Of a stretch of 64,000 bases of DNA, positions 8,384 through 49,464 are shown piece after piece. Every line of letters starts with the position of its first letter. The first letter of the stretch is position 1. Both the position numbers and the translations under genes were made by a program. The DNA is from Aliivibrio fischeri ATCC 7744 = JCM 18803 = DSM 507 (lineage in GTDB: Bacteria > Pseudomonadota > Gammaproteobacteria > Enterobacterales > Vibrionaceae): positions 1,674,001 to 1,738,000 of the forward strand of contig NZ_CP092712.1 of the NCBI RefSeq assembly GCF_023983475.1, given 5' to 3'. The notes below the pieces were generated by a model. It worked only from the letters and a program-made list of their open reading frames with translations. It searched no databases and was not told the origin of the DNA.

Positions 8384-9130
8384 TTAAATGCTGAACACTG
8401 GGTATGGTTGCAGTTCAGGGATCAACTGATGCAATTGCTGTTCATCTTGTGCAATACCTTTTGCTGAATCACATAAGTTTTGTGCTTCATCTTTCATTTC
8501 GGTGCTGTGTTGTTTCATTTTCTCTTTGATCTTAACTTGCACATCAGCAAACTGTTGCTGTAACTCAGTAAAGTTCAATTCCCCTTCTTGCATCTTTAAA
8601 GACAAAGAGTTAAATACACTCGCAAAAAGTTCTTTATCCATACTTTGCATCATCACTTCAAAATCTTGTTTCCAAGTGGTATCCACTTCTTTGAAAAAGT
8701 CATGCTCTAATACCATGTCTTTTCCTTGATAAAACTTTTGCTTGGCTGTGTGGCCATATTCATCAATTTTAGTCTTAACGCCTTCAAATGATCCTTTTGC
8801 ATCAAATGAGGTTTCAATTTCACTGACAAAATCATTAGCTGCGGCAATGCCTTTATCAGTAAAGTCGACAATTTCAGGAATATAAGTCGACACTTGTTGC
8901 TGATAACGCTCTATCGCCTCTTTTTGCTTTTGAGTTAACTGTAACTCTCTACCGTTCACAAAAACTCGACCATCTTGATCAATTCGTAATTTATCTTGTG
9001 CTTTTTCAACTTTCACTTCGCCGTTTTGCGTTAAAAGAACATCATTTTCAACATTCACTGGGCACATACTCGCCCACGCATTACCAGATATAATTAACAG
9101 GGCAGTAGCGATCATTTTTTTAGCTGACAT
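8384..9130 (-). CDS. YggN-like periplasmic protein (DUF2884)
   Basis: A 248-residue secreted protein of the DUF2884/YggN family, function unknown. Residues 1-20 form a signal peptide (MSAKKMIATALLIISGNAWA, cut before SMCPV). The mature part begins with a short beta-rich segment (VLLTQNGEVKVEK... DGRVFVNGRELQL), the part typical of the family, and continues as a long amphipathic helical region rich in Gln, Lys and Glu. A lone Cys follows the signal cleavage site (SMCP) and a second occurs near the end (NLCDSAKG), so a disulfide is possible. It is divergent from purC. Confidence 0.8.
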   Translation of the reverse strand: MSAKKMIATALLIISGNAWASMCPVNVENDVLLTQNGEVKVEKAQDKLRIDQDGRVFVNGRELQLTQKQKEAIERYQQQVSTYIPEIVDFTDKGIAAANDFVSEIETSFDAKGSFEGVKTKIDEYGHTAKQKFYQGKDMVLEHDFFKEVDTTWKQDFEVMMQSMDKELFASVFNSLSLKMQEGELNFTELQQQFADVQVKIKEKMKQHSTEMKDEAQNLCDSAKGIAQDEQQLHQLIPELQPYPVFSI

Positions 9131-9216
9131 ACGTCTTTCTTCTCTTTATTTTAATTAGTCGCTCAGTTTAACTGATTGCACCTATCTAGCTCAACTCAGA
9201 AAATTAACAGAAAAAA

Positions 9217-9232
9217 TAGCAATCGTTTGCTT
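9217..9232 (+). promoter_or_regulatory. PurR operator of purC
   Basis: TAGCAATCGTTTGCTT fits the PurR consensus (ACGCAAACGTTTGCGT) in 12 of 16 places, including the central CGTTTGC. It lies 75 bases before the purC ATG and just upstream of the promoter, as expected for repression by PurR with hypoxanthine or guanine. Confidence 0.8.
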
Positions 9233-9235
9233 TTC

Positions 9236-9266
9236 TTGTGGTAGTCCCAAATAGTTCTGGTATGAT
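9236..9266 (+). promoter_or_regulatory. Likely purC promoter, extended -10 type
   Basis: TGGTATGAT (9258-9266) is an extended -10 element. A weak -35 (TTGTGG, 9236-9241) stands 19 bases upstream. The PurR box abuts it. Confidence 0.55.
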
Positions 9267-9306
9267 GCTCTCAGTTTTTAAACTTTCTTTATATAGGAAT
9301 TCTACA

Positions 9307-10410
9307 ATGAGTCTTTCCGATCAAGTGCTTGCAGTTAATGACGATTTACCTATTCGTACTGATAAACCAGTGCATAGCGGTAAAGTACGTTCAGTGTATT
9401 GGTTAACTGAAGAAGACAGTCGCCGTCTTATTAAAGAAAAGGGATACAACGTCGCTCCTGATGCTCCCCTAGCTATCATGGTGATCAGTGACCGTATTTC
9501 TGCATTCGACTGTATCTGGCGTGGTGAAGGCGATTTGAAAGGTATTCCTGGTAAAGGAGCTGCACTAAATGCTATTTCTAACCATTGGTTTCAATTATTT
9601 AAGGACAACGGTTTAGCGGATAGTCATATTCTTGATATTCCACACCCGTTTGTATGGATTGTTCAAAAAGCAAAACCAGTAATGATTGAAGCTATTTGTC
9701 GTCAATATATTACTGGCTCTATGTGGCGTGCATACACTCAAGGTGAGCGTGAATTTTGTGGTATTACCTTACCTGAGCGTCTTGAAAAAGATGAGCAGTT
9801 GGCTGAACTACTTTTAACACCATCAACGAAAGGCATTTTAAAAGGCATTGATGGGGTTCCTGAAGTAGATGATGTAAATATCACTCGCAAAAACATCGAG
9901 GATAACTACGATAAATTTAACTTTTCTTGTATCGAAGATATCGCTACTTACGAGAAATTATTGAAGGAAGGTTTTGCTGTAATCGCAAAGGCCTTAACTA
10001 AAATTGATCAAATCTTTGTCGATACTAAATTTGAATTTGGCTATGTAGAAGATGCGCAAGGTAATGAAAAACTGATCTATATGGATGAAGTTGGTACGCC
10101 TGATTCTTCTCGTATTTGGGATACCAAAGCATATCGCTCAGGTCATATTATCGAAAACTCAAAAGAAGGTTTCCGTCAGTTTCTATTAAATCACTTCCCT
10201 GATCCGGATATTTTATTAAATAAAAACCGCATGGAAGAACGCTTTGCTTTAGCTAAAGAAAATGCCCTTCCTTTGGAAGCGATGATGGACCTATCTAAAA
10301 CGTATTTAGATATCGCAGCAAAAATTACTGGCGCACCAATTACGTTGAGCGATAATCCAAAAGCAGAGATCATCAAAGTATTAAAAGAAGAGTATCAATT
10401 AGTCGATTAA
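9307..10410 (+). CDS. purC: Phosphoribosylaminoimidazole-succinocarboxamide synthase (SAICAR synthetase)
   Basis: PurC joins aspartate to CAIR with ATP, the eighth step of purine synthesis. This is the long, 367-residue form found in Vibrio and relatives rather than the 237-residue enteric form. Seen are [11 protein letters not shown] (nucleotide-binding strand), [11 protein letters not shown], the ligand motif [23 protein letters not shown] and [15 protein letters not shown] chose ATG 9307, with AGGA in front, over the upstream ATG because the extra 23 residues are not part of the family and would overlap the promoter. A terminator follows directly. Confidence 0.95.
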
Positions 10411-10442
10411 TCGATTAGTACTTATTCTACTGATGACCAAAT

Positions 10443-10474
10443 AAAAATGGCGACCGCATTGGTCGCCATTTTTT
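10443..10474. terminator. Bidirectional terminator of purC and the barrel protein gene
   Basis: AAAAATGGCGACC (10443-10455) pairs with GGTCGCCATTTTT (10461-10473), with T-runs in both directions between two convergent genes. Confidence 0.92.
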
Positions 10475-10509
10475 ATCTCTTCATATAATGAAAACGAAAG
10501 AATTCGTAA

Positions 10510-10983
10510 TTATAGGAAGTGAACCGTTAGGTTAAGAGATGCGAAATCGATGTTTTCGTCACCAACAGTGAAGTTGTTGTAACCAGCACCTACTGTGAAC
10601 ATTGGGATGATGTTGTATTCAACACCTAAACCGAAGAATGGGTCTACGCCATCATCTTTACGGAAACCTTTCGCTTCCCAGCTGTGCATACCTGCTTTGC
10701 CGTAAACGTGTAGAGGACCAAAATCGATGCTTGGTTTAACAGCAAAGTTTACAGAAGTTACGTCTGTTGTTTGGCTACCGTAATCGTAAGAACCTAAGTT
10801 CCAAGCACCCATTTCAAGACCAATGAAAGGCAGTAGACCTGTACCAATGTGAGCACCGTATACCGTTGAGCTCTCGCTTCTGTAATCAGCAGAACCAACT
10901 TGTACGCCACCATAAATTAGAGAGTCTGCAGCAGCTGTTACTGATACGCTTGCTAGAGCTAACGCTAAAAGTGTCTTTTTCAT
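10510..10983 (-). CDS. Small outer-membrane beta-barrel protein
   Basis: A 157-residue exported protein. The start at 10983 is supported by AGGA at a good distance and by the signal peptide that begins there (MKKTLLALALASVSVTAAA, residues 1-19); the frame's upstream extension lacks these features. The mature part alternates hydrophobic and polar residues in short Gly/aromatic-rich strands (YGGVQVGSADYRSE, GLEMGAWNLGSYDYG, FTVGAGYNNFTVG) and ends with a hydrophobic residue followed by terminal Leu (LNLTVHFL), as eight-stranded OmpX/OmpA-like barrels do. Exact role unknown; related Vibrio proteins are annotated as OmpA-like or AcfA-like barrels. Confidence 0.8.
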   Translation of the reverse strand: MKKTLLALALASVSVTAAADSLIYGGVQVGSADYRSESSTVYGAHIGTGLLPFIGLEMGAWNLGSYDYGSQTTDVTSVNFAVKPSIDFGPLHVYGKAGMHSWEAKGFRKDDGVDPFFGLGVEYNIIPMFTVGAGYNNFTVGDENIDFASLNLTVHFL

Positions 10984-11092
10984 CTTAAATCCTATTTTTA
11001 CAAAAGGGAGCGGCAACCTTTGACGCTCTTTTTAATATTATTGTTATTGAAGCAATTAACATGCCGAAATTAATTCTAGTTTAGGTGATACA

Positions 11093-14000
11093 TTAACAAT
11101 CGGCAATGGCATTTTTGACTCGTTTATCAGAAACTGGGTATGGTGTACCCAATTGTTGAGCAAAATAGCTCACTCTTAACTCTTCAATCATCCAACGGAT
11201 CTCTTTTACTTTGTCAGGGATTGGCTGTCCTTTCGGTATCTTATTCAGCAATTCTTTATAATCACTGGTGATCCCTTCAACTTTAAGCAAATGCATACGG
11301 TCCCGATTTGGATCGATCGGCAATTTTTCCATTCGACGCTCAATCGCTTTCATGTAACGGTGGATATCTTGAAGACGCTTCCAACCGCACTCCGTTGCAA
11401 ATCCTTTAAAGATAAGATTTTCTATCTGAGCCTTTATATCCGAAAGCGCAAACGCCATGCTTAAATCAACACGCCCTTTTAACTTTTTCTGAATTTGGAA
11501 AGCGGTAGTTAAAATTGTTTCAACTTGTTTTGCGATCTCAACAACCGTATCCCCAAGCTCTGCTCGGATATGTTCTTTCATTTTTTCAAAGGCTTCAGGT
11601 TGCCAAACAAGACCACCCTGCTCATCTATTAACTTATCGATACCACAAGCAATACAATCATCAATCAAGTCCATCACACGACCATACTGATTAAAGTACA
11701 AACCTAATTTCGATTTATTAGGAAGATTGTCATGTAAATACTTAATTGGTGATGGCACATTAAGAAGAATTAGACGACGTTGGCCGGCCTTCATTGCATT
11801 GTGCTGCTCTTCTTCTGTTTCAAACAGTTTAATTTCTACACTGTCTTTACCATCAACAATCGCTGGATATGCTTTAACTTCAAATCCACCACGTTTCTGT
11901 TTATACAACGTTGGTAACTCACCAAAGCTCCATGTTTTAAGGCCTTTTTGCTCAATATCATCATCCGCAACTTGTGATAATGTTTCTTGAACTTTATCTT
12001 TTAAGCCTTCTTTTAACTCATACAAATCACGGCTTTCTTTTAGCTTGCGATTACGATGGTCAACAACACGATATGTCACTTTTAAGTGATCTGGGATCTG
12101 TTCTAGTTTCCAATCGTCACGGAACACTTCAAACCCTGTCATTCGACGAAGTTCTTTTTCTAAACTGTCTAATAACGGCGCTTCGAACGGTACAGCACGA
12201 GATAAAAATGCATCAGCATAATTAGGTGCTGGTACGAAATTCTTACGAACGGTTTTAGGTAACGACTTAATCAACGCCATCACTAATTCGTGACGTAAAC
12301 CTGGGATCTGCCAATCAAAGCCATGAGGTTCAACTTGGTTTAAAATTGGTAGTGGTACATGTACCGTTACACCATCGCTGTCTTGCCCCGGCTCAAATTG
12401 GTAACTTAATTTTAGTTTTAAGTTTCCTTGATGCCAGAAGTTTGGATAATCTAAATCCGTTACATGGCTTGCATCACCACGGAACAGCATTTCTTTTTCA
12501 AAGTTTAATAACTCTGGCGTCTCTTTTTGCGCTTTCTTCCACCACGTATCAAAATGACGGCCAGATACTACATCTACGCCAACTCGTTGATCGTAGAATT
12601 CAGCGAGTTGATCATCATCAACAAGAATATCGCGACGACGAGACTTATGCTCAAGTTCTTCAACTTCTTGTAATAACTTACGGTTTTGTTTAAAGAACTG
12701 ATGCTTAGTATGCCAATCACCTTCAATTAGAGCTGAACGAATAAAAATTTCACGACACACAGGCGCATCAATCGCACCGTAGTTAATTTGGCGTTTAGGT
12801 ACAATCGGAATACCGTAAATAGTGACTTTTTCATAAGCCATTACTGCTGCTGATTTCTTCGACCAATGTGGTTCACTGTAACTGCGCTTAATCAAATGCC
12901 CTGCTAATGGTTCAATCCATTCAGGCTGAATTTTCGCAACAATTCGTCCCCATAATTTTGAGGTTTCAACCAACTCTGCAACCATGACCCATTTTGGTTG
13001 TTTCTTAAATAAACCAGAAGCTGGGAAGATATGGAATCGTGCATTACGTGCACCTTGGTACTCATTCTTTTCTTGATCTTTTTGACCAATATGAGAAAGC
13101 ATACCCGCTAAAATTGCAGTATGAACGCCTTGATAGCCTGCCGCTTCTTGATTCACTTTGTAATTAAGCTCTTTCATTACTTGGCTTAATTGGTAGTGAA
13201 CATCTTGCCATTCACGTACACGTAAATAGTTCAAAAAGTCTTTACGACATTGCTTTCTAAATTGATTACTTGAAAGCTCTTTCTGTTTTGCTTTTACATG
13301 TTCCCACACGTTCACAAACGTTAAGAAATCCGAATCTTCATGATTAAAGCGTTTATGTTTATCGTCAGATTGTTGTTTCTTATCACTTGGACGCTCACGT
13401 GGGTCTTGAATTGATAGTGCCGCCGCAATGATCATCACTTCTTGTAATGCATTATACTTCGGTGCTTCAAGTACCATTCTAGCTAAACGTGGATCAATCG
13501 GAAGACGGGCTAATTCACGTCCAACTTTAGTTAAGCTCTTCTTCGGATCTTTCGCATTTGAATTAATCGCACCTAATTCTTCAAGTAGCTTAATACCATC
13601 TTGAATATTGCGATTATCAGGGGCTTCTACAAATGGGAAAGCTTGAATATCCCCCAACCCTAACGCTGTCATCTGCAAAATTACAGACGCTAGGTTAGTA
13701 CGTAAGATCTCAGGATCGGTAAACTCTGGACGAGAAATAAAATCTTCTTCAGAGTAAAGACGAATACAGATACCTTCAGATACACGACCACAACGACCTT
13801 TACGCTGATTTGCACTGGCTTGTGAAATCGCTTCAATTGGTAAACGTTGTACTTTGGTGCGATAGCTATAACGACTAATACGTGCAGTACCAGGGTCGAT
13901 AACGTATTTGATCCCCGGAACAGTAAGCGATGTTTCCGCTACGTTAGTCGCTAATACAATTCGACGACCAGCGTGTGGTTGGAAGACACGATTTTGCTCT

Positions 14001-39252: not shown

Positions 39253-39783
39253 TTACAATATTTTCAATGCTAACTGAGCCAAATTATACGCATCAACATA
39301 CCCTGAATGTTGACGGCCTTCCCATTCGATATTCAATTCTTCCATTGCTCTACGTTGCCCCATTCGCTCGTTTTTCTTACGCGAACGAATTCGATAGATA
39401 GTGGCAAGGTTTAAAAACTCATTAAATGGAACTTCAATACCTTTAGCTTTACATTCCGCTTCAAGGATTTGTTCATCATGTCCCCACGCAGCATAAATTT
39501 TATTTGTTCCGCCAAAGTTTTTAACCATGGACTTCAATACATCAGCTAATGGACGGCCTTGTTTTTCAATTTTACGTGGAGAGATACCTGTAAGATCAAC
39601 ACAAAATAGAGAGATTTCATCTTTTTCTGGTTTTACATAATACTGCGCACGCTTAACCACTTCACCTTTTGTAAGATCAATTTCAGCTAAACCAACCTCA
39701 ATGATCTCCCCTGTTCTACCTTTGCCATTTTCATTCCAACAGCACATTTCTAAATCAAAACAGACGATACGATTAAAGTTCAT
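39253..39783 (-). CDS. DEDDh 3'-5' exonuclease, ERI-1/KapD-like
   Basis: A 176-residue exonuclease of the DnaQ fold. The four acids and the general base are visible: Asp and Glu in CFDLEMCCW (about residues 9-17), Asp in AAWGHDEQIL (about 100-107), and His and Asp in RQHSGYVDAYNLA (about 157-169), which makes it the DEDDh type. The arrangement resembles eukaryotic ERI-1 and bacterial KapD proteins that trim RNA 3' ends. Whether it acts on RNA or DNA cannot be told from sequence alone. Single gene. Confidence 0.85.
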   Translation of the reverse strand: MNFNRIVCFDLEMCCWNENGKGRTGEIIEVGLAEIDLTKGEVVKRAQYYVKPEKDEISLFCVDLTGISPRKIEKQGRPLADVLKSMVKNFGGTNKIYAAWGHDEQILEAECKAKGIEVPFNEFLNLATIYRIRSRKKNERMGQRRAMEELNIEWEGRQHSGYVDAYNLAQLALKIL

Positions 39784-39873: not shown

Positions 39874-41403
39874 TCAGCCTCGAATGGTAACTTGGTTACG
39901 CCCCATCGCTTTACTTTGATATAACGCTTGGTCAGCAGCCTTCAACAACTCTTCAAGAGTTTCTCCTTGCCAAAGAACAGCACCAAGACTGATAGTTTGA
40001 GCGATATCGAAATCATTAAGCACCGTTGGAGATGTGGCTACAAGATCATGAATTTGTTCTGAAATTAACGTTAGTTCATCGATACTATTCAGCTTCATCA
40101 CAATAGAAAACTCATCACCTCCAAGACGTGATACGTAGGCATTATTTCCCAATGTTTCAGACATTAAGTGACCAATATGTCGCAAAACTGCATCCCCTTC
40201 AGGATGACCATATGTGTCATTGATTTGTTTAAATTTATCAATATCAAAACACAACAAAGCAAAGGATTTTTTTGTTTCAATATAGCGACTAATCACATCA
40301 CGTATAGCACGACGATTTAATAAGCCAGTAAGATCATCATGCATTGCCATATAACGTAATTCTTTGGTTCTAATTTCGAGCAGATTTTCAATTCGTTGTT
40401 TATCTCGAGTAACAACAGAAGTTAGTGCCGCAATCAGCATTGAAATCGTTAAAATACCAAAAAATAACCAGATCAACGTGAGTCTTTGATATTCGTTTAA
40501 TTTATTGTCAGCTTTATATTCAATTTTCCAAAGCCGATTTTCGATTTTTACGCTAGTTGTATAATCAACTCCTTTAAAATTATTCCATGTACTGCTTTGG
40601 TACATGATAGGATCATCACCTGCATCAAATCCCGTATCAATAATACGAACAACTAATTCCTCACCTAAAGAAGTAGAATTAACTAAGCGATCAAAGTAGC
40701 TTGTGATCCTAACTACTCCAACCATTACCCCTTTTAACGATGTTTTATCTGAAGTAAATACTGGGTGATAAACTAGCATGCCTGTTTTCGGAGCAATCTG
40801 ATCAAGACTGTCTCTTAACAAACGAATTTTATCTGAAACACTCGGCCGCCCCGTTGTTAAAAACTCTTCGACAACAAGATTAAAACGCTCTCTCGATGAA
40901 TAAAATCCAATTAGAGGTGAGTTTTTCTCATCTCTTGGATAGATATCTGTTGCGATATAAATGGGCTCATGATTTTTCATCACATAACCGTAGGTTTTAG
41001 GCTGGTCTTTTGGGACGGTATATAATCGAGCTAAGGGATAATTTTTATGTATTTGTTTAAAATGATCATCAATATCTTTTTCTTCCACTTTCTCCATCCA
41101 CTGAAGTGAAATAAGACTATTAGAACGATGCAATAATGAATCCGCAAACAAAGGAAACTGAGACCAATCCTTTTTACTGCCTACTTGATAGAAGTTTGCC
41201 CCCGCACCTATAAAATCAATATCTTTCTCTATTAACATCGAAAGCAGCGCTGACTGTCTATCTGCTTCTTTATAGAAGTTCTTTTGATTATTATCCAAAT
41301 CGGATAGATAAACGAACCTCATACTTAATAGACCTAGAGATAGAGCTAACAAAAAACTGGTCATTACATAAAAGTAATTACTCTTAAACACTCTGCTCTC
41401 CAA
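39874..41403 (-). CDS. Membrane diguanylate cyclase with CHASE sensor
   Basis: A 509-residue protein that probably makes cyclic di-GMP. Transmembrane helices lie near residues 11-30 and 306-330; between them is a CHASE periplasmic sensor domain (DRQSALLSMLIEKDIDFIGAGANFYQ, SLQWMEKV, IGFYSSRERF). The cytoplasmic GGDEF domain starts at about residue 350 (MHDDLTGLLNRRAI) and has an intact active loop SRLGGDEFSIVM at about 426-437. The RxxD inhibitory site is missing: the residues at the two key places are Gly and Ala, so feedback inhibition by its product is unlikely. No EAL domain. A high c-di-GMP level would favour retention of a LapA-type adhesin such as the one in this window. Confidence 0.9.
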   Translation of the reverse strand: MESRVFKSNYFYVMTSFLLALSLGLLSMRFVYLSDLDNNQKNFYKEADRQSALLSMLIEKDIDFIGAGANFYQVGSKKDWSQFPLFADSLLHRSNSLISLQWMEKVEEKDIDDHFKQIHKNYPLARLYTVPKDQPKTYGYVMKNHEPIYIATDIYPRDEKNSPLIGFYSSRERFNLVVEEFLTTGRPSVSDKIRLLRDSLDQIAPKTGMLVYHPVFTSDKTSLKGVMVGVVRITSYFDRLVNSTSLGEELVVRIIDTGFDAGDDPIMYQSSTWNNFKGVDYTTSVKIENRLWKIEYKADNKLNEYQRLTLIWLFFGILTISMLIAALTSVVTRDKQRIENLLEIRTKELRYMAMHDDLTGLLNRRAIRDVISRYIETKKSFALLCFDIDKFKQINDTYGHPEGDAVLRHIGHLMSETLGNNAYVSRLGGDEFSIVMKLNSIDELTLISEQIHDLVATSPTVLNDFDIAQTISLGAVLWQGETLEELLKAADQALYQSKAMGRNQVTIRG

Positions 41404-41560: not shown

Positions 41561-41588
41561 CTTGAATATGCTACTATTAGCCACAATT
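41561..41588 (+). promoter_or_regulatory. Putative promoter of the DUF2760-Hsp70 cluster
   Basis: TGCTACTAT (41569-41577) fits an extended -10. CTTGAA (41561-41566) with CCACAAT (41581-41587) 14 bases later is also an imperfect match to a heat-shock sigma-32 promoter (CTTGAA-N13-15-CCCATNT). Both readings are possible. Confidence 0.35.
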
Positions 41589-41637: not shown

Positions 41638-42270
41638 ATGAATTTTGACTTGAATGCTATTCCTTCTACCTTTGATTTAGGACACATTGTCCTGTTCGGT
41701 ACATCTGCTCTATTTGCATTATTGTACATAACGAAGAAAGGTAAAGCGGTAGAGATCGAAAAAACAGTTGAAGTCGAAAAAATCGTCGAAGTTGAGAAAC
41801 CTGTAGAAAAAATCGTCGAAATCGAAAAAGTCGTTGAAGTTGAAAAGATCATTGAGAAAATCATCGAAGTTGAGCCAAAAGTAAAAGCATCAACGCCTGA
41901 ATCTGCTTTACAACTATTGGCTTTATTACAAAAAGAAGCACGTTTTATCGACTTTATGCAAGAAGACCTAAAAGGCTTCGCAGATGCAGAAGTTGGTGCT
42001 GCAGCTCGTGTTATTCATGAAGGCGGCCAAAAAGTATTATCTGACTACTTTACTCTTACTCCAGTTCGTACTGAGGAAGAAGAGTCTCGTTTATCTATTC
42101 CTGCTGGTTTTAACCCATCGGAAATTCGTCTAACGGGTAATGTAGTTGGTGAAGCTCCATTTAATGGCACATTAATTCACCGTGGTTGGAAAGTTGCGGA
42201 AGTGAAGCTACCAAAGCTGGCTGAAGGTTATGACGCAACAATCGTTGCTCCAGCAGAGGTTGAACTGTAA
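41638..42270 (+). CDS. DUF2760 protein, membrane-anchored, partner of Hsp70 genes
   Basis: A 210-residue protein. A hydrophobic N-terminal segment (about residues 14-30) is followed by a repetitive stretch of Glu, Lys, Val and Ile with the period EKxVE from about residue 38 to 80, which should form an extended helix or charged stalk, and then by the DUF2760 domain (ESALQLLALLQKEARFIDFMQEDLKGFADAEVGAAARVIH...GTLIHRGWKV). Its stop codon overlaps the next ATG as TAATG, so translation is probably coupled to the first Hsp70 gene. Function unknown; the context suggests a co-chaperone or a membrane anchor for the Hsp70 proteins. Confidence 0.82.
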   Translation: MNFDLNAIPSTFDLGHIVLFGTSALFALLYITKKGKAVEIEKTVEVEKIVEVEKPVEKIVEIEKVVEVEKIIEKIIEVEPKVKASTPESALQLLALLQKEARFIDFMQEDLKGFADAEVGAAARVIHEGGQKVLSDYFTLTPVRTEEEESRLSIPAGFNPSEIRLTGNVVGEAPFNGTLIHRGWKVAEVKLPKLAEGYDATIVAPAEVEL

Positions 42271-44090
42271 TGGAACAAGCTAAATACAGCATTGGTATCG
42301 ATTTAGGTACAACTCACTGTGTTCTTTCTTATGTGGATTTACATGATGAAGACGCAAGCGTTCAAGTAATGCCAATCCCTCAACTAACCGCCCCAGGTCA
42401 AGTTGAAGAAAAATCGCAGCTGCCTTCTTTCATGTATCAAGCACATGAAGCTGAACTATTAGAAGGTGATACAAGCCTTCCTTGGACAACCAAGCCAAAC
42501 GCAATTGTTGGTAGCATAGCTCGTAACCTTGGAAGCAAAACGCCAATTCGTTTAATTGCGAGTGCGAAAAGTTGGTTATGTCACGGTGGCGTAAACCGTC
42601 GTGAAGCCTTCTTACCATTAAACAGCCCTGAAGAAGTGATCAAAGCGTCACCTCTTGAAGTAACAAAGCGTTATTTAGAGCATTTACAAAACGCTTGGGA
42701 TCACCAAAACCCAGAGCACCCTCTAAATGAACAAGACATTACAATTACAGTACCTGCATCATTTGACCCTGCTGCGCGTGATTTAACAGCAGAAGCGGCA
42801 AATAATCTTGGTTTCCGTAACTTAACGCTTTTAGAAGAGCCACAAGCAGCGGTATACAGCTGGATCAAAAATAACGATGATTCATGGCGTGACCAAGTAT
42901 CGGTTGGCGATGTTATTTTAGTTGTCGATATCGGTGGTGGTACAACGGATTTATCATTAGTTGCGGTTACTGAAGAAGAAGGTAATTTAAGCCTAAACCG
43001 TGTTGCGGTAGGTGATCATATTCTTCTTGGTGGCGACAACATGGATTTAGCCCTAGCTTATCGTTTAAAAATGAAGCTAGCGCAAGAAGGTAAGCAACTG
43101 CAACCTTGGCAAATTCAAGTGATGACTCACGCCTGTCGTGATGCTAAAGAAGCCCTTCTTAATGATGCTGAATTACGCGCAGTGCCAATTGTGGTTCCTA
43201 GCCGTGGTTCTAAATTGTTAGGTGGCACGCTACAAACTGAATTAACTCAAGAAGAAGTTCAACAAACTTTGGTTGAAGGCTTCTTCCCTGTTGTTCCTGT
43301 GACTGAGCACCCAGTTCAATCTGCACGTGGTGCATTAACTCAAATGGGTCTTCCTTATGCACAAGATGCAGCGGTAACTCGTCACCTTGCTAGTTTCTTA
43401 ACACGTCAACAAGCAGCAACTGATGAAGTATTTGGTCAACAAAACGAATCCGATTTTATTAAACCAACGGCCATTCTTTTAAATGGTGGAGTTCTAAAAT
43501 CAAACCTACTTGCAGAGCGTCTACTTGGCATTATTAATCAGTGGTTAATCGATGGCGAAGCGGAAGACGCAAAACTGCTTGAAGGTCTTGACCTTGATTT
43601 AGCTGTTGCGGCTGGTGCTTCTTACTACGGCTCTGTTCGTACCGGTAAGGGTGTTCGTATCCGTGGTGGCATTGCATCAAGTTACTATGTTGGTATCGAA
43701 AGCTCTATGCCTGCGATTCCTGGAATGGAACCACCAATGGAAGCATTGTGTGTTGCTCCATTTGGTATGGAAGAAGGCTCGCACGCCGATGTACCTAGCC
43801 AACAATTTGGTTTGGTGATTGGCCAACCGGTGCAATTTAAGTTCTATGGTTCAACGACTCGTCGTGACGACCAAGCCGGTACACATTTGGATTTCTGGAT
43901 GCCAGAAGAGCTAGAAGAGTTACCTGCAATTCAAGTGACATTACCTGTTACTGAAGGCCGCACAGCAGGTGAAGTGGTGCCTGTTCGTTTAGCCTCTAAA
44001 GTGACTGAACTTGGTACTCTTTATCTTGAAGCTATTGCTGCTGACAGCGGTGAGAAATGGCACGTTGAGTTCGATGTTCGTGAAGCGTAA
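42270..44090 (+). CDS. Hsp70-family protein, non-DnaK
   Basis: A 606-residue Hsp70-like ATPase. The nucleotide-binding domain is complete: phosphate loop 1 IGIDLGTTHCVLSYV at residues 8-22, EEPQAAVYSW at about 190, and phosphate loop 2 VVDIGGGTTDLSLV at about 215-228. The substrate-binding part (from about residue 440) is short and lacks the DnaK lid and the EEVD-like tail. It is distinct from DnaK, HscA and HscC. The start overlaps the stop of the DUF2760 gene by one base, and a terminator-like hairpin follows. In the cell it probably remodels proteins together with the DUF2760 partner and the second Hsp70; substrates are unknown. Confidence 0.88.
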   Translation: MEQAKYSIGIDLGTTHCVLSYVDLHDEDASVQVMPIPQLTAPGQVEEKSQLPSFMYQAHEAELLEGDTSLPWTTKPNAIVGSIARNLGSKTPIRLIASAKSWLCHGGVNRREAFLPLNSPEEVIKASPLEVTKRYLEHLQNAWDHQNPEHPLNEQDITITVPASFDPAARDLTAEAANNLGFRNLTLLEEPQAAVYSWIKNNDDSWRDQVSVGDVILVVDIGGGTTDLSLVAVTEEEGNLSLNRVAVGDHILLGGDNMDLALAYRLKMKLAQEGKQLQPWQIQVMTHACRDAKEALLNDAELRAVPIVVPSRGSKLLGGTLQTELTQEEVQQTLVEGFFPVVPVTEHPVQSARGALTQMGLPYAQDAAVTRHLASFLTRQQAATDEVFGQQNESDFIKPTAILLNGGVLKSNLLAERLLGIINQWLIDGEAEDAKLLEGLDLDLAVAAGASYYGSVRTGKGVRIRGGIASSYYVGIESSMPAIPGMEPPMEALCVAPFGMEEGSHADVPSQQFGLVIGQPVQFKFYGSTTRRDDQAGTHLDFWMPEELEELPAIQVTLPVTEGRTAGEVVPVRLASKVTELGTLYLEAIAADSGEKWHVEFDVREA

Positions 44091-44123
44091 TTTAAATATT
44101 ATTCTTCGCTAGTTACGCATCTT

Positions 44124-44162
44124 AAGAGTTCAGTCACCGTTATGGAGGCTGAACTCTTTTAC
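44124..44162 (+). terminator. Hairpin between the two Hsp70 genes
   Basis: AAGAGTTCAG (44124-44133) pairs with CTGAACTCTT (44149-44158) and is followed by TT and AT-rich sequence. It could stop or reduce transcription into the second Hsp70 gene. Confidence 0.7.
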
Positions 44163-44196
44163 TATATATCCTTTGTATTTTTGCTGTTGCCTTCTT

Positions 44197-44239
44197 ATAC
44201 CAATGTAACTAATTAGATGTTCATTATTGATATTGGTAT
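44197..44239. repeat. Short inverted repeat between the Hsp70 genes
   Basis: ATACCAAT (44197-44204) and ATTGGTAT (44232-44239) are perfect 8-bp arms around an AT-rich 27-base centre. Sequences of the form TATACCAAT...ATTGGTAT recur between genes in Vibrionaceae, so this may be a small dispersed element. Confidence 0.4.
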
Positions 44240-44278
44240 TACTAACAGCTACAAGACTAACATTACGTCGGGGTTTTT

Positions 44279-47095
44279 ATGAGTTCTTCTAATCGCTATT
44301 TAATTGGTATCGATCTTGGTACTACTCACACCGTTGTTGCTTATACTGATATTTCTCTTGGTATTGAAACTAGCCCAATTGAAATCTTCAATATCGACCA
44401 ATTGGTTGGACCGGGTGAAGTGGCTCGTAAACCCCTACTTCCATCATTTCGTTACCACGCATCAAAAAGTCAGCTCACTGAAAATGATCTGACGCTGCCT
44501 TGGAATGTAAAGACAATTGAGGGGGAGATAAAAAACGCCATCATTGGTGAATGGGCCCGTGAATTGGGATCAAAAGTAGAAGGTCGCCAAGTCGTGAGTG
44601 CTAAAAGTTGGTTATCTCATACCAAAGTTGATCGCACCTCTGATATTCTTCCTTGGGCAGGCGCAGATGATGTCGAAAAAGTGTCACCTATTGTTGCCAG
44701 TGCAAGCTATTTAAACCATGTACGCCAATCGTGGAATTATCATCACCCAGACGCTCCAATGGAGCTTCAAGAAGTCGTTGTTACTGTACCAGCCTCTTTT
44801 GATGAAAGTGCTCGCTCATTTACTATCGAAGCAGCAAAACTGGCAGGTCTTGATAAGATCATTCTATTGGAAGAACCACAAGCCGTTTGTTATGACTGGT
44901 ACCACCATCATCAAGATACTGCAAAAGACATTTTAAAGAACATCCCGTTAATGGTGGTGTGCGATGTAGGCGGCGGTACTACCGATTTAAGTTTAATCCA
45001 AGCACGTTTTAATAAAGACGAATTAGCTCTTGATCGTATCGGTGTGGGTGATCACCTAATGCTAGGCGGCGACAACATCGATTTAGCCTTAGCGCATTTA
45101 GCTGAACAGCGTTTAGATAGCGGTAAGAAAATGACGGCAGCCGCGTTAACCAAACTTATCCAACAAACTCGCAAAACCAAAGAACGTTTGCTATCTGCTA
45201 ACGCCCCTGAATCTGGTCACATTACTCTTCTGGGGTCAGGCTCTAAACTATTAGGTGGCAGCCGCAAAGTTGAGTTAACCAAAGAAGAAGTACATCAGAT
45301 CGCACTGGATGGATTCTTACCACTGACCGACTTTAGTGACCGTCCAAATCAGCGTCAAACTGCTGTTGTTGAATTTGGCTTACCTTACGCATCAGATCCT
45401 GCGATCAGTAAACACCTAGCTCAATTCTTAGATAACCATAAAGAAGTCTCTGCAAAAGCATTAGGTTGGGATGATGCGGAATTAGCTAATCATGACGACC
45501 GTGCTATACCTGTGGGTCTGTTACTCAATGGCGGCGTATTTAATAGTCCGCTATTAGCTGAACGTTCACTTGAATTGATGAATAACTGGAAAGGTGACAC
45601 TGTCACTCAACTATCTAACCCTCATCCTGATTTGGCTGTTGCTTACGGTGCCGTTGCTTATGGTAAAGCACGTCATGGTGCACAGTTAAAGATTGGCGGT
45701 GGTTCGGCTCGTTCATTCTATTTGCAATTAGAAGAGAAAAATAAACAGCCTCAAGGTTTATGTTTATTGGCAAAAGGCAGTGAAGAAGGCGAAGAAATTC
45801 GCATGACAAGTCGTCGTTTCTCACTAACTTTAGGCGAACCAGTTCGATTTAATTTGCTTTCAACAACAAAAGGTCAACTTGCGACCTCAGGAATGATCAC
45901 TGAGTTATCCGACCCTAGTTTTGTTAGCTTACCTCCTTACGTAGTAACACTTGAATCAAGTAAATCAAAAGATGAACTGCACGCAAACCAGAAAGATCGC
46001 GTTGAAGTAACTCTCGCTTGTCAATTTACAGAAGTCGGAACCATTAAAATTGAATGCGTTTCTGTTGAAGACGATTCGCTGCGTTGGTTAGTCGAATTTG
46101 AAGTACGTAATCAAGCCTCCAATAAAAGTGCTAACCTTGCGGATCAAATTAGCCTTCCTCCTCGTCTACCGAATGCTATAGCAAGTATTAAAGAGGCTTA
46201 TGGCGGCAGCAAACAAAACCCAAATGCCATTAAAGCCTTTTCTAAAAACATAGAGAAGCTGATAGGTAAACGTGAATCATGGGATTTAATTACCTCACGG
46301 GAACTAGCAACCGCATTACTTGACAGTAAAAAACGTCGCCGCCGTTCTGATAAACATGAACAAAACTGGTTAAAAATGACAGGTTTTGCTCTGCGTCCTG
46401 GTTTTGGCTACCCTGCCGATGAATGGAAGATATCTCAAGCATGGGAAACCTATCAACAAGGCATTCAATTCGAGTCGAAACAATCTTGGAACGACTGGTG
46501 GACATTCTGGCGTCGAATTTCTGGAGGTCTAAACCAAGAGCAACAAGAAACGATTTTAGCTGATATGGCAAAATACCTACATCCAGGTTCTTTGCGCAAC
46601 CCAAAAACATTGGAAGAAGCCAGTAACAAAAGTTATGAGGCAATGGTTCGCCTAGCTGCAGCACTAGAACACCTCGATGTAGAAGATAAAATGTTAATTG
46701 CTTCTTGGGTACTAGGCCATGCAAAAAATGGTAACCAACCGCAGGTGCACTGGTGGGCTTTAGGTCGAATTTGTTCACGTTCACCATTTTATGGTAGCCA
46801 ACATAATTTAGTGCCTCCAAGTCAAATCTCTCAGTGGCTACCAACATTATTAGAACAAGACTGGAAAGAACAACCAATGGCTGGTTTTGCTGCTGTCATG
46901 ATGGCTCGCTTAACTGGAGATAGAACCCTAGATGTATCGGATGATTATCGAGAAAAGATCATTGATAAATTGAAAAAAGAACGCTGCCCACAAAGTTGGA
47001 TTGGACTAGTATCAAGTCAACAAGCATTAACAGAAGCGGATTCTAAACGCTTATTTGGTGATGCATTACCTGCAGGCTTACGTCTAATTAATTAG
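44279..47095 (+). CDS. Hsp70-family protein with long C-terminal extension (DUF3731-like)
   Basis: A 938-residue protein. Residues 1 to about 600 are an Hsp70 ATPase and short substrate domain homologous to the preceding gene: GIDLGTTHTVVAY at about 9-21, EEPQAVCYDW, and VCDVGGGTTDLSL at about 227-239. The last 330 residues (from about PRLPNAIASIKEAYGG) are all-helical and Trp-rich (ESKQSWNDWWTFWRRISGG) and correspond to the DUF3731-type extension found only on this kind of Hsp70. It lies 188 bases behind the first Hsp70 gene, with a hairpin between, so it may have its own promoter. The pair probably arose by duplication. Function not known. Confidence 0.85.
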   Translation: MSSSNRYLIGIDLGTTHTVVAYTDISLGIETSPIEIFNIDQLVGPGEVARKPLLPSFRYHASKSQLTENDLTLPWNVKTIEGEIKNAIIGEWARELGSKVEGRQVVSAKSWLSHTKVDRTSDILPWAGADDVEKVSPIVASASYLNHVRQSWNYHHPDAPMELQEVVVTVPASFDESARSFTIEAAKLAGLDKIILLEEPQAVCYDWYHHHQDTAKDILKNIPLMVVCDVGGGTTDLSLIQARFNKDELALDRIGVGDHLMLGGDNIDLALAHLAEQRLDSGKKMTAAALTKLIQQTRKTKERLLSANAPESGHITLLGSGSKLLGGSRKVELTKEEVHQIALDGFLPLTDFSDRPNQRQTAVVEFGLPYASDPAISKHLAQFLDNHKEVSAKALGWDDAELANHDDRAIPVGLLLNGGVFNSPLLAERSLELMNNWKGDTVTQLSNPHPDLAVAYGAVAYGKARHGAQLKIGGGSARSFYLQLEEKNKQPQGLCLLAKGSEEGEEIRMTSRRFSLTLGEPVRFNLLSTTKGQLATSGMITELSDPSFVSLPPYVVTLESSKSKDELHANQKDRVEVTLACQFTEVGTIKIECVSVEDDSLRWLVEFEVRNQASNKSANLADQISLPPRLPNAIASIKEAYGGSKQNPNAIKAFSKNIEKLIGKRESWDLITSRELATALLDSKKRRRRSDKHEQNWLKMTGFALRPGFGYPADEWKISQAWETYQQGIQFESKQSWNDWWTFWRRISGGLNQEQQETILADMAKYLHPGSLRNPKTLEEASNKSYEAMVRLAAALEHLDVEDKMLIASWVLGHAKNGNQPQVHWWALGRICSRSPFYGSQHNLVPPSQISQWLPTLLEQDWKEQPMAGFAAVMMARLTGDRTLDVSDDYREKIIDKLKKERCPQSWIGLVSSQQALTEADSKRLFGDALPAGLRLIN

Positions 47096-47255
47096 ATGAA
47101 TTCTCATTAATGCTTTAATTTGTTATATGAGAAATGAATATCTTTGGTGAAAAATTGCACACCACTGTCAAAGGTGTGCAAACATCATCTTATTCTTCTT
47201 CTAATTGCATTTGATTCAAGTATACTGAAATCATCACATTTTGAAGGTAACTTTT

Positions 47256-47558
47256 ATGATTGAAAGCGCCATATTGGCGATCATAGTGTTACTTTATTTT
47301 GTTGGTTGGTCCCGTTTCGGTACTCGAGAATTACGCAATGCAGCTAAGAGGTTAAGTGATATCGCCTCTGTTCCACAAGAGCTGATTATTGAATGGATTA
47401 TGTATAATAAACAGATATTGGATATCAATGAGTTTCAACGTTTTATCATCCATTTAAATAAAGCCGACACCGAAAACTTAAAACATGAATTGGATAGCTT
47501 TTCTCATTATCTTGAAATTCATGCGCCCGAACATACTATTTCAATTAATCGGGTATAA
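47256..47558 (+). CDS. Small membrane protein, function unknown
   Basis: A 100-residue protein with one N-terminal transmembrane helix (AILAIIVLLYFVGW, about residues 5-18) and a soluble, helical C-terminal part (RNAAKRLSDIASVPQELIIEWIMYNKQILDINEFQRF). The start is ATG 47256 because AAGGTAA precedes it; an upstream TTG in frame overlaps that site. I do not recognise the family. It is a single gene with its own terminator. Confidence 0.65.
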   Translation: MIESAILAIIVLLYFVGWSRFGTRELRNAAKRLSDIASVPQELIIEWIMYNKQILDINEFQRFIIHLNKADTENLKHELDSFSHYLEIHAPEHTISINRV

Positions 47559-47622: not shown

Positions 47623-48096
47623 CTAACTTCTTGTTCCTAACTTCACTTTGCCCTTAGAATTAAACCATAAGACTTGTGATTTTTTCTTACCAATTAATAA
47701 TGGTAAGTCATCATAAAATAAGAAGTTCTTCCACGTTTTCTTAAACGTTCCCCATGAGGTTTCAATTAAGTTATATTTCTCATAACAAAAATAGATAGTT
47801 ACTTCATCTGACCAATCAATAAACTCTAGCACTTCTTCAGGTAATGATTCATTATCGCTGTCCCAGCGGTGTTGCCAATCAATTTCATTTGTCCACGAGC
47901 TTTTCTTCATTGGCCACTCTTTTGAGCCAAAATGATCTGCCGTAGGGCTATTACTACTAATAAAGTCATTCCAAACTTGAGCTGATTTTGCTTGAGTGAA
48001 TGGTTTAATTAAAGGCAGCAAGGCATCATCAACAGGCATTGATTGATGAGTAAAAATCCACTTGCGATTGTATTCATCTAAAGGTAAATAGCTCAT
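47623..48096 (-). CDS. DUF2947-like protein
   Basis: A 157-residue soluble, Trp- and acid-rich protein that I take to be of the DUF2947 family, found in Vibrio and other gammaproteobacteria with no assigned function. Typical parts are the start MSYLPLDEYNRKWIFTHQSMPV, the DWQHRWDSD segment, and IYFCYEKYNLIETSWGTFKKTWKNFLFYDD. No signal peptide, membrane helix or catalytic motif is visible. Convergent with the small membrane protein gene. Confidence 0.65.
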   Translation of the reverse strand: MSYLPLDEYNRKWIFTHQSMPVDDALLPLIKPFTQAKSAQVWNDFISSNSPTADHFGSKEWPMKKSSWTNEIDWQHRWDSDNESLPEEVLEFIDWSDEVTIYFCYEKYNLIETSWGTFKKTWKNFLFYDDLPLLIGKKKSQVLWFNSKGKVKLGTRS

Positions 48097-48312: not shown

Positions 48313-49464
48313 ATGATTACGCATGTTGGCATTTTAGATCAAGACCCCGTACGTCTAATCACCCCACTTTTAGATTTATCGGTGAAAGGCGAACACATGG
48401 TGTTCATTGGCGATGAAACTCAAAAAGAGATGTTCCATCGACTGGAGTCAATTCTAAAATATAAAGGGATCAGTTCTGATTTTTTTGAAATCCCTAATAT
48501 TGTTGATACCCACGCAATCAAGCAATCATTGCAAGCACTTGCTGCTGAAATGAAACTTCACTTTAGTGACATCAAATTAAATGCAAGTTGTGGTCTTCGT
48601 CACCGTCTTCTTTCTGCCTATGAAGTGTTCCGTTCATATCATTGGCCAATCTTTGTTGTAGAGCCATACAGTGACAAATTATGTTGGTTATACCCAGATG
48701 GTCGCAAACAAAAACACGTTGCTGATAATATTCGCTTGAGTGATTATCTTGCTATTTTTGGGGCTCGCTGTGAGTTTTCAGAAACTGAATTACCAGAAAG
48801 TATCGATAAGCGCTTAAGAGAACTATGCCAACGCTGGGCAAGCAACGCATTAGAGTTAGGCCCGGGCTTAGCAACATTAAACTATTTAGCCACCACTTGT
48901 CGTAAAGAACAACGTTTAGATGTTGAAGTAACAGAGAAACAACAGAGCTATAAAGAACTTAATATGCTACTAACTGATCTTGTTGAAACAGGGTTAGCTA
49001 CGTATGAAAATGGCATACTCACTTTTGATTGCGAAGAAGCTCGTCGTTTAGCCAATGGTGAATGGCTTGAAATATTGGTTCACAACACGGTTGTCGATAT
49101 TCAGCAATATTTACCAACTCTGCAAGACCACTCGTTAAATGTTCAAGTGCATCGGGAAATTGGTGAAAAAGACGTTCGTAATGAACTTGATGTGGTTAGT
49201 ATCGTAAATAACAAACTGCATATCATTGAATGTAAAACCAAAGGCATGCGTGATGATGGTGATGATACGCTATACAAATTAGAATCATTACGTGATTTAC
49301 TTGGTGGACTGCAAGCTCGTGCAATGCTTGTTAGCTTCCGTCCTCTACGTAATAACGACATTATGCGCGCACAAGACTTAGGCTTGGCGATTATCGGCCC
49401 TGATGAATTAGGCGATCTTAAAAAACATCTTCTTAACTGGTTCTTAGCGGCCGGTGGTCATTAA
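48313..49464 (+). CDS. CARF-domain nuclease, Card1/Can2 (DUF1887) family
   Basis: A 383-residue protein of the DUF1887 family, whose Vibrio cholerae member VC1899 has a known structure and whose relatives Card1 and Can2 are nucleases switched on by cyclic tetra-adenylate made by type III CRISPR complexes. Residues 1 to about 140 form the Rossmann-like CARF domain (THVGILDQDPVRLITPLL ... LNASCGLRHR), a helical winged domain follows, and the C-terminal PD-(D/E)xK nuclease has Asp in NELDVV (about 291) and ECKTKG (about 305). No type III cas genes or array are in the window, so its activator here is unknown. Single gene with terminator. Confidence 0.88.
   Translation: MITHVGILDQDPVRLITPLLDLSVKGEHMVFIGDETQKEMFHRLESILKYKGISSDFFEIPNIVDTHAIKQSLQALAAEMKLHFSDIKLNASCGLRHRLLSAYEVFRSYHWPIFVVEPYSDKLCWLYPDGRKQKHVADNIRLSDYLAIFGARCEFSETELPESIDKRLRELCQRWASNALELGPGLATLNYLATTCRKEQRLDVEVTEKQQSYKELNMLLTDLVETGLATYENGILTFDCEEARRLANGEWLEILVHNTVVDIQQYLPTLQDHSLNVQVHREIGEKDVRNELDVVSIVNNKLHIIECKTKGMRDDGDDTLYKLESLRDLLGGLQARAMLVSFRPLRNNDIMRAQDLGLAIIGPDELGDLKKHLLNWFLAAGGH

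Follow-up and report, generated by a model that had tools for sequence, protein, structure and literature searches.

A 64,000-nucleotide stretch of the Aliivibrio fischeri ATCC 7744 genome (contig NZ_CP092712.1, positions 1,674,001 to 1,738,000 of the forward strand, referred to here as the window) carries three consecutive forward-strand genes that encode a DUF2760 protein and two divergent Hsp70s, for which we coined the working names HspA and HspB. We propose with moderate confidence that the three products make up a dedicated, membrane-associated machine with two Hsp70s rather than spare copies of DnaK, a proposal in which chaperone activity, complex formation and the exchange mechanism are what we infer. 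The three genes behave as one obligate unit, and the strongest evidence for a single functional unit is that their linkage is lost in some genomes without loss of the partners.

The first gene (41638-42270) encodes the DUF2760 protein of 210 amino acids (aa) (PF10816, E 4e-55), the second (42270-44090) HspA, a divergent Hsp70 of 606 aa with an ATPase and a beta domain and, apparently, no lid (PF00012, E 8e-16), and the third (44279-47095) HspB, a divergent Hsp70 of 938 aa with a C-terminal helical domain (PF00012, E 3e-16; PF12531, E 8e-101). The initial annotation had described an ordered DUF2760-Hsp70-Hsp70 cluster, and the open reading frames (ORFs) lie where it had placed them, including the one-base TAATG (TAA/ATG) overlap of the first two genes at 42268-42272. 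The window proteins are plain members of PF10816 (DUF2760, 185 bits) and PF12531 (DUF3731, "DNA-K related protein," 338 bits), both over a cut-off of 25 bits, and these families are names without a function.

Co-occurrence and gene order

Presence was scored in 543 genomes from two phyla (398 Pseudomonadota and 145 Verrucomicrobiota, each sample containing its own positive center genome), with thresholds of E≤1e-3 for DUF2760 and E≤1e-40 for HspA. DUF2760 was found in 28 of the Pseudomonadota genomes and HspA in the identical 28, while DUF3731 was detected in 27 of them; in the genome that gave no DUF3731 match (G026), HspA stops 84 bases from the contig end. Among the Verrucomicrobiota, DUF2760 and HspA occupy the same 24 genomes, and HspB, scored there by a second match with a long HspB-like frame and not by a DUF3731 search, was present in 23. 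Taken together, the two phyla have 52 genomes with both DUF2760 and HspA, 50 of which also have HspB, and 491 with neither DUF2760 nor HspA. The finding that had been named as damaging to the idea of a system, i.e., that the three genes rarely occur together, is the opposite of what this survey gave.

The order DUF2760-HspA-HspB on one strand was kept in the window and in all 20 further loci inspected for it. A scan with one pattern recovered at least 570 encoded DUF3731 relatives, of which 80 were kept as named loci, including ones from Magnetococcales, alpha-, beta- and gammaproteobacteria, Verrucomicrobia, Planctomycetes, Bdellovibrionales and Desulfobacteraceae. The trio is present in 60 of these loci, and 9 others are truncated upstream. 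The remaining 11 contain HspB but neither HspA nor DUF2760, even though more than 7 kb upstream of HspB is available in each. DUF2760 and HspA overlap in 45 of the 60 trios (by 4 bases in 41 and by 1 base in 4); in one locus (L061), about 2.9 kb (9054-11972) separates HspA from HspB.

The 11 loci with HspB only, together with two whose contigs start 87 and 349 bases before HspB (L090 and L094), give 13 genomes with HspB alone in the locus, in which Hsp70s other than HspA and HspB stayed below 100 bits. DUF2760 and HspA were located elsewhere in 12 of the 13, the genome search finding neither in the remaining one (L090). In 10 of these 12 split genomes, DUF2760 adjoins HspA, and in the other 2, all three genes lie apart. 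The 24 Verrucomicrobiota genomes comprise 13 with trios, 5 with DUF2760 and HspA together and HspB elsewhere, 1 with HspA and HspB together and DUF2760 elsewhere, 4 with all three apart, and 1 without HspB. One genome (G603) has the three genes on a single contig, 0.26 to 2.1 Mb from each other.

A gene of the system was found in 88 of 121 Vibrionaceae genomes, from 6 of 13 genera. HspB was present on 11 of 72,556 plasmid records, chiefly large Burkholderiales replicons, and a plasmid record names the trio DUF2760 domain-containing protein, Hsp70 family protein and hsp70 family protein. Searches of E. coli genomes for HspA DNA and of phages for DUF2760 found none.

Identity and anatomy of HspA and HspB

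Both proteins were claimed to be Hsp70 ATPases other than DnaK and HscA, and this holds: they score at most 87 bits against the NCBIfam equivalog and subfamily models of DnaK and HscA, whose cut-offs range from 620 to 1019 bits. Phylogenetically, HspA and HspB group together to the exclusion of DnaK, HscA and a third Hsp70 from the same genome (ultrafast bootstrap 100; FastTree 0.907), with an outgroup of three sequences that all come from one genome and sit on a long branch. HspA is monophyletic (support 100). The best tree nests HspA inside HspB, so that a sister-clade arrangement was not adopted; HspB monophyly was not rejected either (approximately unbiased test, P = 0.081), and for this reason we leave the order of events undecided. 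The distances within HspA and HspB mirror each other closely (r = 0.96), which was not used as evidence because shared species history yields the same. Identity between HspA and HspB over 79 loci amounts to 45% for the ATPase domain, compared to 28% for the beta domain.

The A. fischeri genome contains seven Hsp70-family matches, the strongest of which (865 and 636 bits) were taken as DnaK and HscA. Another unusual Hsp70 of this genome, the third, has 830 aa (L170 20-2934, at about 2713419-2716333 of chromosome contig C1), and its start overlaps an upstream 141-aa ORF lacking a Pfam match; the two are possibly another dedicated Hsp70 pair.

Five positions that we take to be the phosphate-binding and catalytic residues of Hsp70 (K70, E171, D194, T199 and D201, E. 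coli numbering) are invariant in 82 HspA and 95 HspB sequences wherever the column holds a residue (2 HspA sequences have no K70 column), and both proteins are thus predicted to retain a complete ATP-hydrolysis site. The surface for J-proteins is another matter. N170 has become E in 177 of 177 sequences of both groups, and R167, which, like N170, we assume to be a J-docking residue and in fact the main one, is kept in 2 of the 82 HspA. The interdomain linker DVLLLDVTPL is absent from aligned HspA and HspB; its column was placed differently in two alignments, and only the absence of the motif was used.

Eighty of the 82 HspA end at positions equivalent to HspB residues 611 to 619. The last residue of the window HspA corresponds to HspB residue 612, just past the modeled beta domain, and HspA therefore appears to have no lid. 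In the HspB model (predicted local distance difference test [pLDDT] 86, predicted template modeling score [pTM] 0.85), the ATPase domain extends to about residue 465, a ten-strand beta domain (residues 479 to 605, 45713-46093) occupies the position of the Hsp70 substrate-binding beta domain, and helices follow from 612 to 926. The region replacing the lid (residues 612 to 938, 46112-47092) comprises about 327 aa and includes DUF3731 (residues 690 to 936, 46346-47086), so that HspB is modeled with this helical domain where the lid would be. Tryptophan accounts for 4.7% of residues 641 to 938 (14 residues), compared to 1.4% before them. The size and composition given by the initial annotation, a Trp-rich helical domain of 330 residues, are accordingly right; its novelty is not, as this is the existing Pfam family DUF3731, of unknown function. 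Among 39 aligned proteins, H693, E694, R706, D714, R745 and R746 are invariant polar positions of DUF3731.

When the HspB model was compared to solved structures with Foldseek, ATP-bound DnaK came out on top (E 6e-23, template modeling [TM] score 0.61 by target), and the 50 best listed matches are Hsp70 or Hsp110 entries. The matches are to full Hsp70s, with lid-truncated Hsp70s and Sse1 also in the list. HspA and HspB share with DnaK and HscA the catalytic residues examined and the succession of ATPase and beta domains, and the best Foldseek targets of the HspB model are DnaK structures. They differ in their low identity (14 to 17% in the listed structure alignments), in their separate clade, in a linker motif, J-docking residues and lid that are lost, changed or replaced, and in going together as two copies with an obligate DUF2760 partner. 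The eukaryotic Hsp70-Hsp110 (Sse1) pair resembles them in keeping two diverged Hsp70s together, and the Foldseek list includes Sse1 as well as the Hsp110:Hsc70 complex (E ~1e-17). However, Hsp105/Hsp110 matches are weaker than those to DnaK both in sequence (E 1e-6 versus 4e-9) and in structure, HspA and HspB are about equally distant from DnaK, and a role in exchange is hypothetical here.

The absence of J-protein and GrpE genes nearby, remarked upon at the outset, extends well beyond A. fischeri: none was recognized when the 9,462 ORFs of 101 loci, including those of the window, were searched using phmmer at E≤1e-3 with five queries from the same genome. In this genome, GrpE gives a single match and the J-domain six (five over the cut-off and one below), all away from the cluster. 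A 201-aa frame that has a membrane-like stretch and matches the J-domain at its C-terminal end (L175, C1 at about 1662200-1664200) is located about 53 kb from the operon, outside the window.

The DUF2760 protein

The AlphaFold2 model of the DUF2760 protein (pLDDT 79, pTM 0.51) consists of a transmembrane helix that hydropathy also picks out (residues 14 to 34, 41677-41739), a low-confidence stalk (about residues 35 to 85), and a soluble core (residues 86 to 210, 41893-42267) in which helices are followed by a small C-terminal beta region. Glu, Lys, Val and Ile make up 43 of 47 stalk residues in the window protein. With KKGK following the helix, the positive-inside rule would place the core in the cytoplasm.

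Hydropathy was scanned in 81 DUF2760 proteins, 70 of which could be scored (the core pattern was unmatched in the 11 dropped, several of which look hydrophobic at the N-terminus), and 25 of the 70 reached 1.6 or more. Values are high in vibrios, alphaproteobacteria and some methylotrophs and lower in most Burkholderiales, whose N-terminus is amphipathic, rich in Ala and Pro, and has a repeated SFLGRISLAVGTFFSILG-type segment. The spacer, mostly 35 to 80 residues long, is of the Glu/Lys/Val/Ile type in vibrios and mostly of Ala and Pro elsewhere. In these sequences, it is the spacer itself and not its composition that is conserved. The membrane anchor with a charged Glu/Lys/Val stalk first described for this protein consequently applies to the window, the vibrios and some others and does not generalize to the Burkholderiales.

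Putative expression signals in vibrios

A sigma32-like promoter block, CTTGAAT-N13-CCACAATT (41561-41588, forward strand), lies upstream of the DUF2760 gene and overlaps an extended -10 element, TATGCTACTAT. A similar block, CTTGA(A/T)-N-CCCCATNT-like, is visible in 9 of 11 aligned vibrio loci. Its strict form was found in 7 of the 11, compared to 0.04 expected from Markov shuffles, for a pattern that was chosen after viewing the alignment. The grpE gene of the same genome, used as a control, gave a comparable match.

Between HspA and HspB there is a terminator-like hairpin (44124-44158, forward strand) with a perfect 10-bp stem followed by a T-rich stretch (fold z-score -3.2). The same test found such hairpins in 5 of 10 further vibrio loci and in none of three other gammaproteobacterial loci. 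HspB is probably made in smaller amounts than HspA in vibrios. The same gap contains an inverted repeat, ATACCAAT...ATTGGTAT, 3' of the hairpin (44197-44239).

Proposed mechanism and alternative explanations

In the machine that we propose, the DUF2760 protein would recruit HspA to the inner membrane, on the cytoplasmic side. It would do so through an N-terminus that is hydrophobic or amphipathic and a flexible spacer, mostly of about 35 to 80 residues. The transmembrane helix, the gene overlap, and the pairing of the two genes in most split genomes suggest this role. HspA would be the core client-binding ATPase and HspB a partner acting on HspA or on its client. HspB would either exchange nucleotide, in the way that Hsp110 serves Hsp70, or provide the lid that HspA lacks, in the form of DUF3731. 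This hypothesis for HspB draws on three features: it is almost always present, its gene can be separated from the other two, and its lid has been replaced. The machine might thereby handle misfolded or nascent proteins at the membrane independently of the usual J-domain docking, and in vibrios the trio would be part of the heat-shock response. A more specific version, in which the client is held by an HspA without a lid and HspB provides in trans both the exchange activity and, with DUF3731, the lid, within a heteromer that DUF2760 tethers to the membrane and that is free of J-proteins and GrpE, is put forward tentatively, since we consider it rather doubtful.

Several observations weigh against this interpretation. 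R167 is retained in 61 of 95 HspB, so that HspB may use J-proteins. The profile comparison to DnaK and HscA covers the ATPase domain only, and the beta domain is not recognized as the beta part of the substrate-binding domain (SBD-beta). Foldseek aligns HspB with DnaK loosely when the whole chain is considered (TM score 0.41 by query, root mean square deviation 22), and hence there is no rigid match over that length. DUF3731 has no significant solved relative by profile (best E 0.09), which makes its role as lid or exchange domain a guess. HspA passes the Pfam MreB_Mbl model (PF06723) narrowly, with 28.7 bits against a cut-off of 27 (HspB, with 20.3, is below). The transmembrane helix of DUF2760 is weak or absent in many Burkholderiales, and several of the splits come from fragmented assemblies, so that some separations may be assembly breaks. 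As for expression, the strict promoter block was not found in any of 67 loci from outside the vibrios (0.1 expected), the block in the window is imperfect and not one of the strict seven, and the hairpin is missing from 5 of the 10 further vibrio loci. We found no activity for these proteins in open-access print, and the formation of a complex is part of the model.

HspA and HspB could instead be specialized DnaK paralogues that borrow the DnaJ-type proteins and GrpE of the cell, with DUF2760 as an adaptor. The J-domain proteins and GrpE of the A. fischeri genome would be available to them, their ATPase site is intact, and most HspB keep R167. Against this stand the substitution of N170 in every sequence, the loss of R167 in 80 of 82 HspA, the absent linker motif, the lack of a lid in HspA and its replacement in HspB, the separate clade, and the 101 loci without a J-protein or GrpE ORF. 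Ordinary DnaK paralogues were the counter-explanation named in the initial annotation, and these features disfavor it, the R167 of HspB being the feature that does not; we consider such paralogues unlikely. To a similar degree we doubt that the two are actin-fold regulatory or scaffold ATPases at the membrane, without chaperone function, whose beta and DUF3731 domains bind a specific partner and not unfolded clients. The marginal MreB_Mbl score of HspA, the beta domain that profiles do not recognize, the membrane-linked partner, and the invariant polar positions of DUF3731 would fit such proteins, but HSP70 scores are twice the MreB scores, the NCBIfam MreB models give at most 30 bits against cut-offs of 293 to 366, the 50 best listed structural matches are Hsp70 or Hsp110, and the vibrio promoter looks like a heat-shock promoter.

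A different role for DUF2760, as a membrane-tethered, GrpE-like nucleotide exchange factor for both Hsp70s, seems improbable. GrpE consists of helices followed by a small C-terminal beta region, the layout also modeled for DUF2760, and Thermus GrpE appears at rank 10 of its Foldseek matches (E 1.5, TM score 0.26). Yet nine unrelated chains outrank GrpE, no DUF2760 match reaches E≤0.001, the profile comparison does no better than shuffled controls (score 11.1; mean of shuffles 11.9, 95% point 15.5), and the families listed at E≤10 for 36 DUF2760 members do not include GrpE; as the weak Foldseek match was not backed by profiles, we rejected this kinship. An antiphage defense system, suggested by weak matches of HspA and HspB to the candidate defense model PDC-M61B (E ~4e-6 and ~2e-6), is highly improbable and was rejected, given that the match spans about 100 of 588 model positions, that the gene is common in Vibrionaceae (though confined to the six genera mentioned), and that phages yielded no DUF2760.

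Neighboring genes

Single-linkage clustering of 1,268 flank ORFs from the 101 loci, each cluster being judged by one representative, did not reveal a further conserved partner gene among the 25 largest clusters. The largest, with 35 loci, runs antisense to HspA; next comes a cluster of the GGDEF type (34 loci, without a background comparison), and the rest are mostly confined to one lineage. In the window, a CHASE-GGDEF gene (39874-41403, reverse strand) is divergent from the operon, and an RNase_T exonuclease gene (39253-39783) clusters with flank ORFs of all 11 vibrio loci. Downstream of HspB there are a 105-aa ORF without a Pfam match (47241-47558, forward strand) and a DUF2947 gene (47623-48096, reverse strand). 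These are followed by a gene (48313-49464, forward strand) whose 383-aa product has a Card1-like endonuclease domain (PF09002, E 1e-65), presumably of the CARF-type nuclease family ancillary to clustered regularly interspaced short palindromic repeats (CRISPR).

Occurrence in the literature

Searches of the open-access literature, a scope that most subscription papers fall outside, found no mention of DUF2760, DUF3731, PF10816 or PF12531. No functional study was found there either, in agreement with the view that the system has no assigned function. From annotation and gene order, we infer that VC1373-VC1375 of Vibrio cholerae are this trio. These genes are annotated in a row as DnaK-related proteins, and the relevant passages of three articles give expression results only (PMC9201469, PMC5816637, PMC5636140): VC1374 is among the genes tabulated as repressed in biofilm (PMC9201469), VC1373 is listed at -1.04 in a study of riboflavin and iron (PMC5816637), and VC1374 is at -2.7 log2 between a sensor kinase mutant and the wild type (PMC5636140). 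In PMC9608740, VC1374 denotes a strain, and the passages of PMC11019930 mention neither Vibrio nor YegD nor DUF. A passage of another article reports a HapR-activated VC1375 promoter in V. cholerae, with the start site given on the plus strand (PMC10328515). HapR control of the operon was not adopted, as a plus-strand start site in that passage does not tell which of the divergent genes is driven, and the site was not found in the V. metoecus locus (L118) with up to 3 mismatches. A "DnaK-related" protein of Photobacterium, VAS14_01896, is not shown to be this protein in the part of the source that mentions it (PMC3706606).

Significance

The usual picture of Hsp70 is that of one ATPase served by a J-protein and GrpE, with a lid closing over the client. 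The conserved two-Hsp70 unit described here departs from this picture and yet keeps its ATPase site intact; it occurs in Pseudomonadota, Verrucomicrobiota and Planctomycetes, and Vibrionaceae commonly have it. Current annotation hides it under the names "DnaK-related," "Hsp70 family" and "DUF," and its three genes are concrete targets. If the system works without J-proteins and GrpE, it would be a natural test of what is essential to the Hsp70 cycle, and if the heteromer free of both exists as outlined above, it would be a bacterial and independently built counterpart of the Hsp70-Hsp110 pair.

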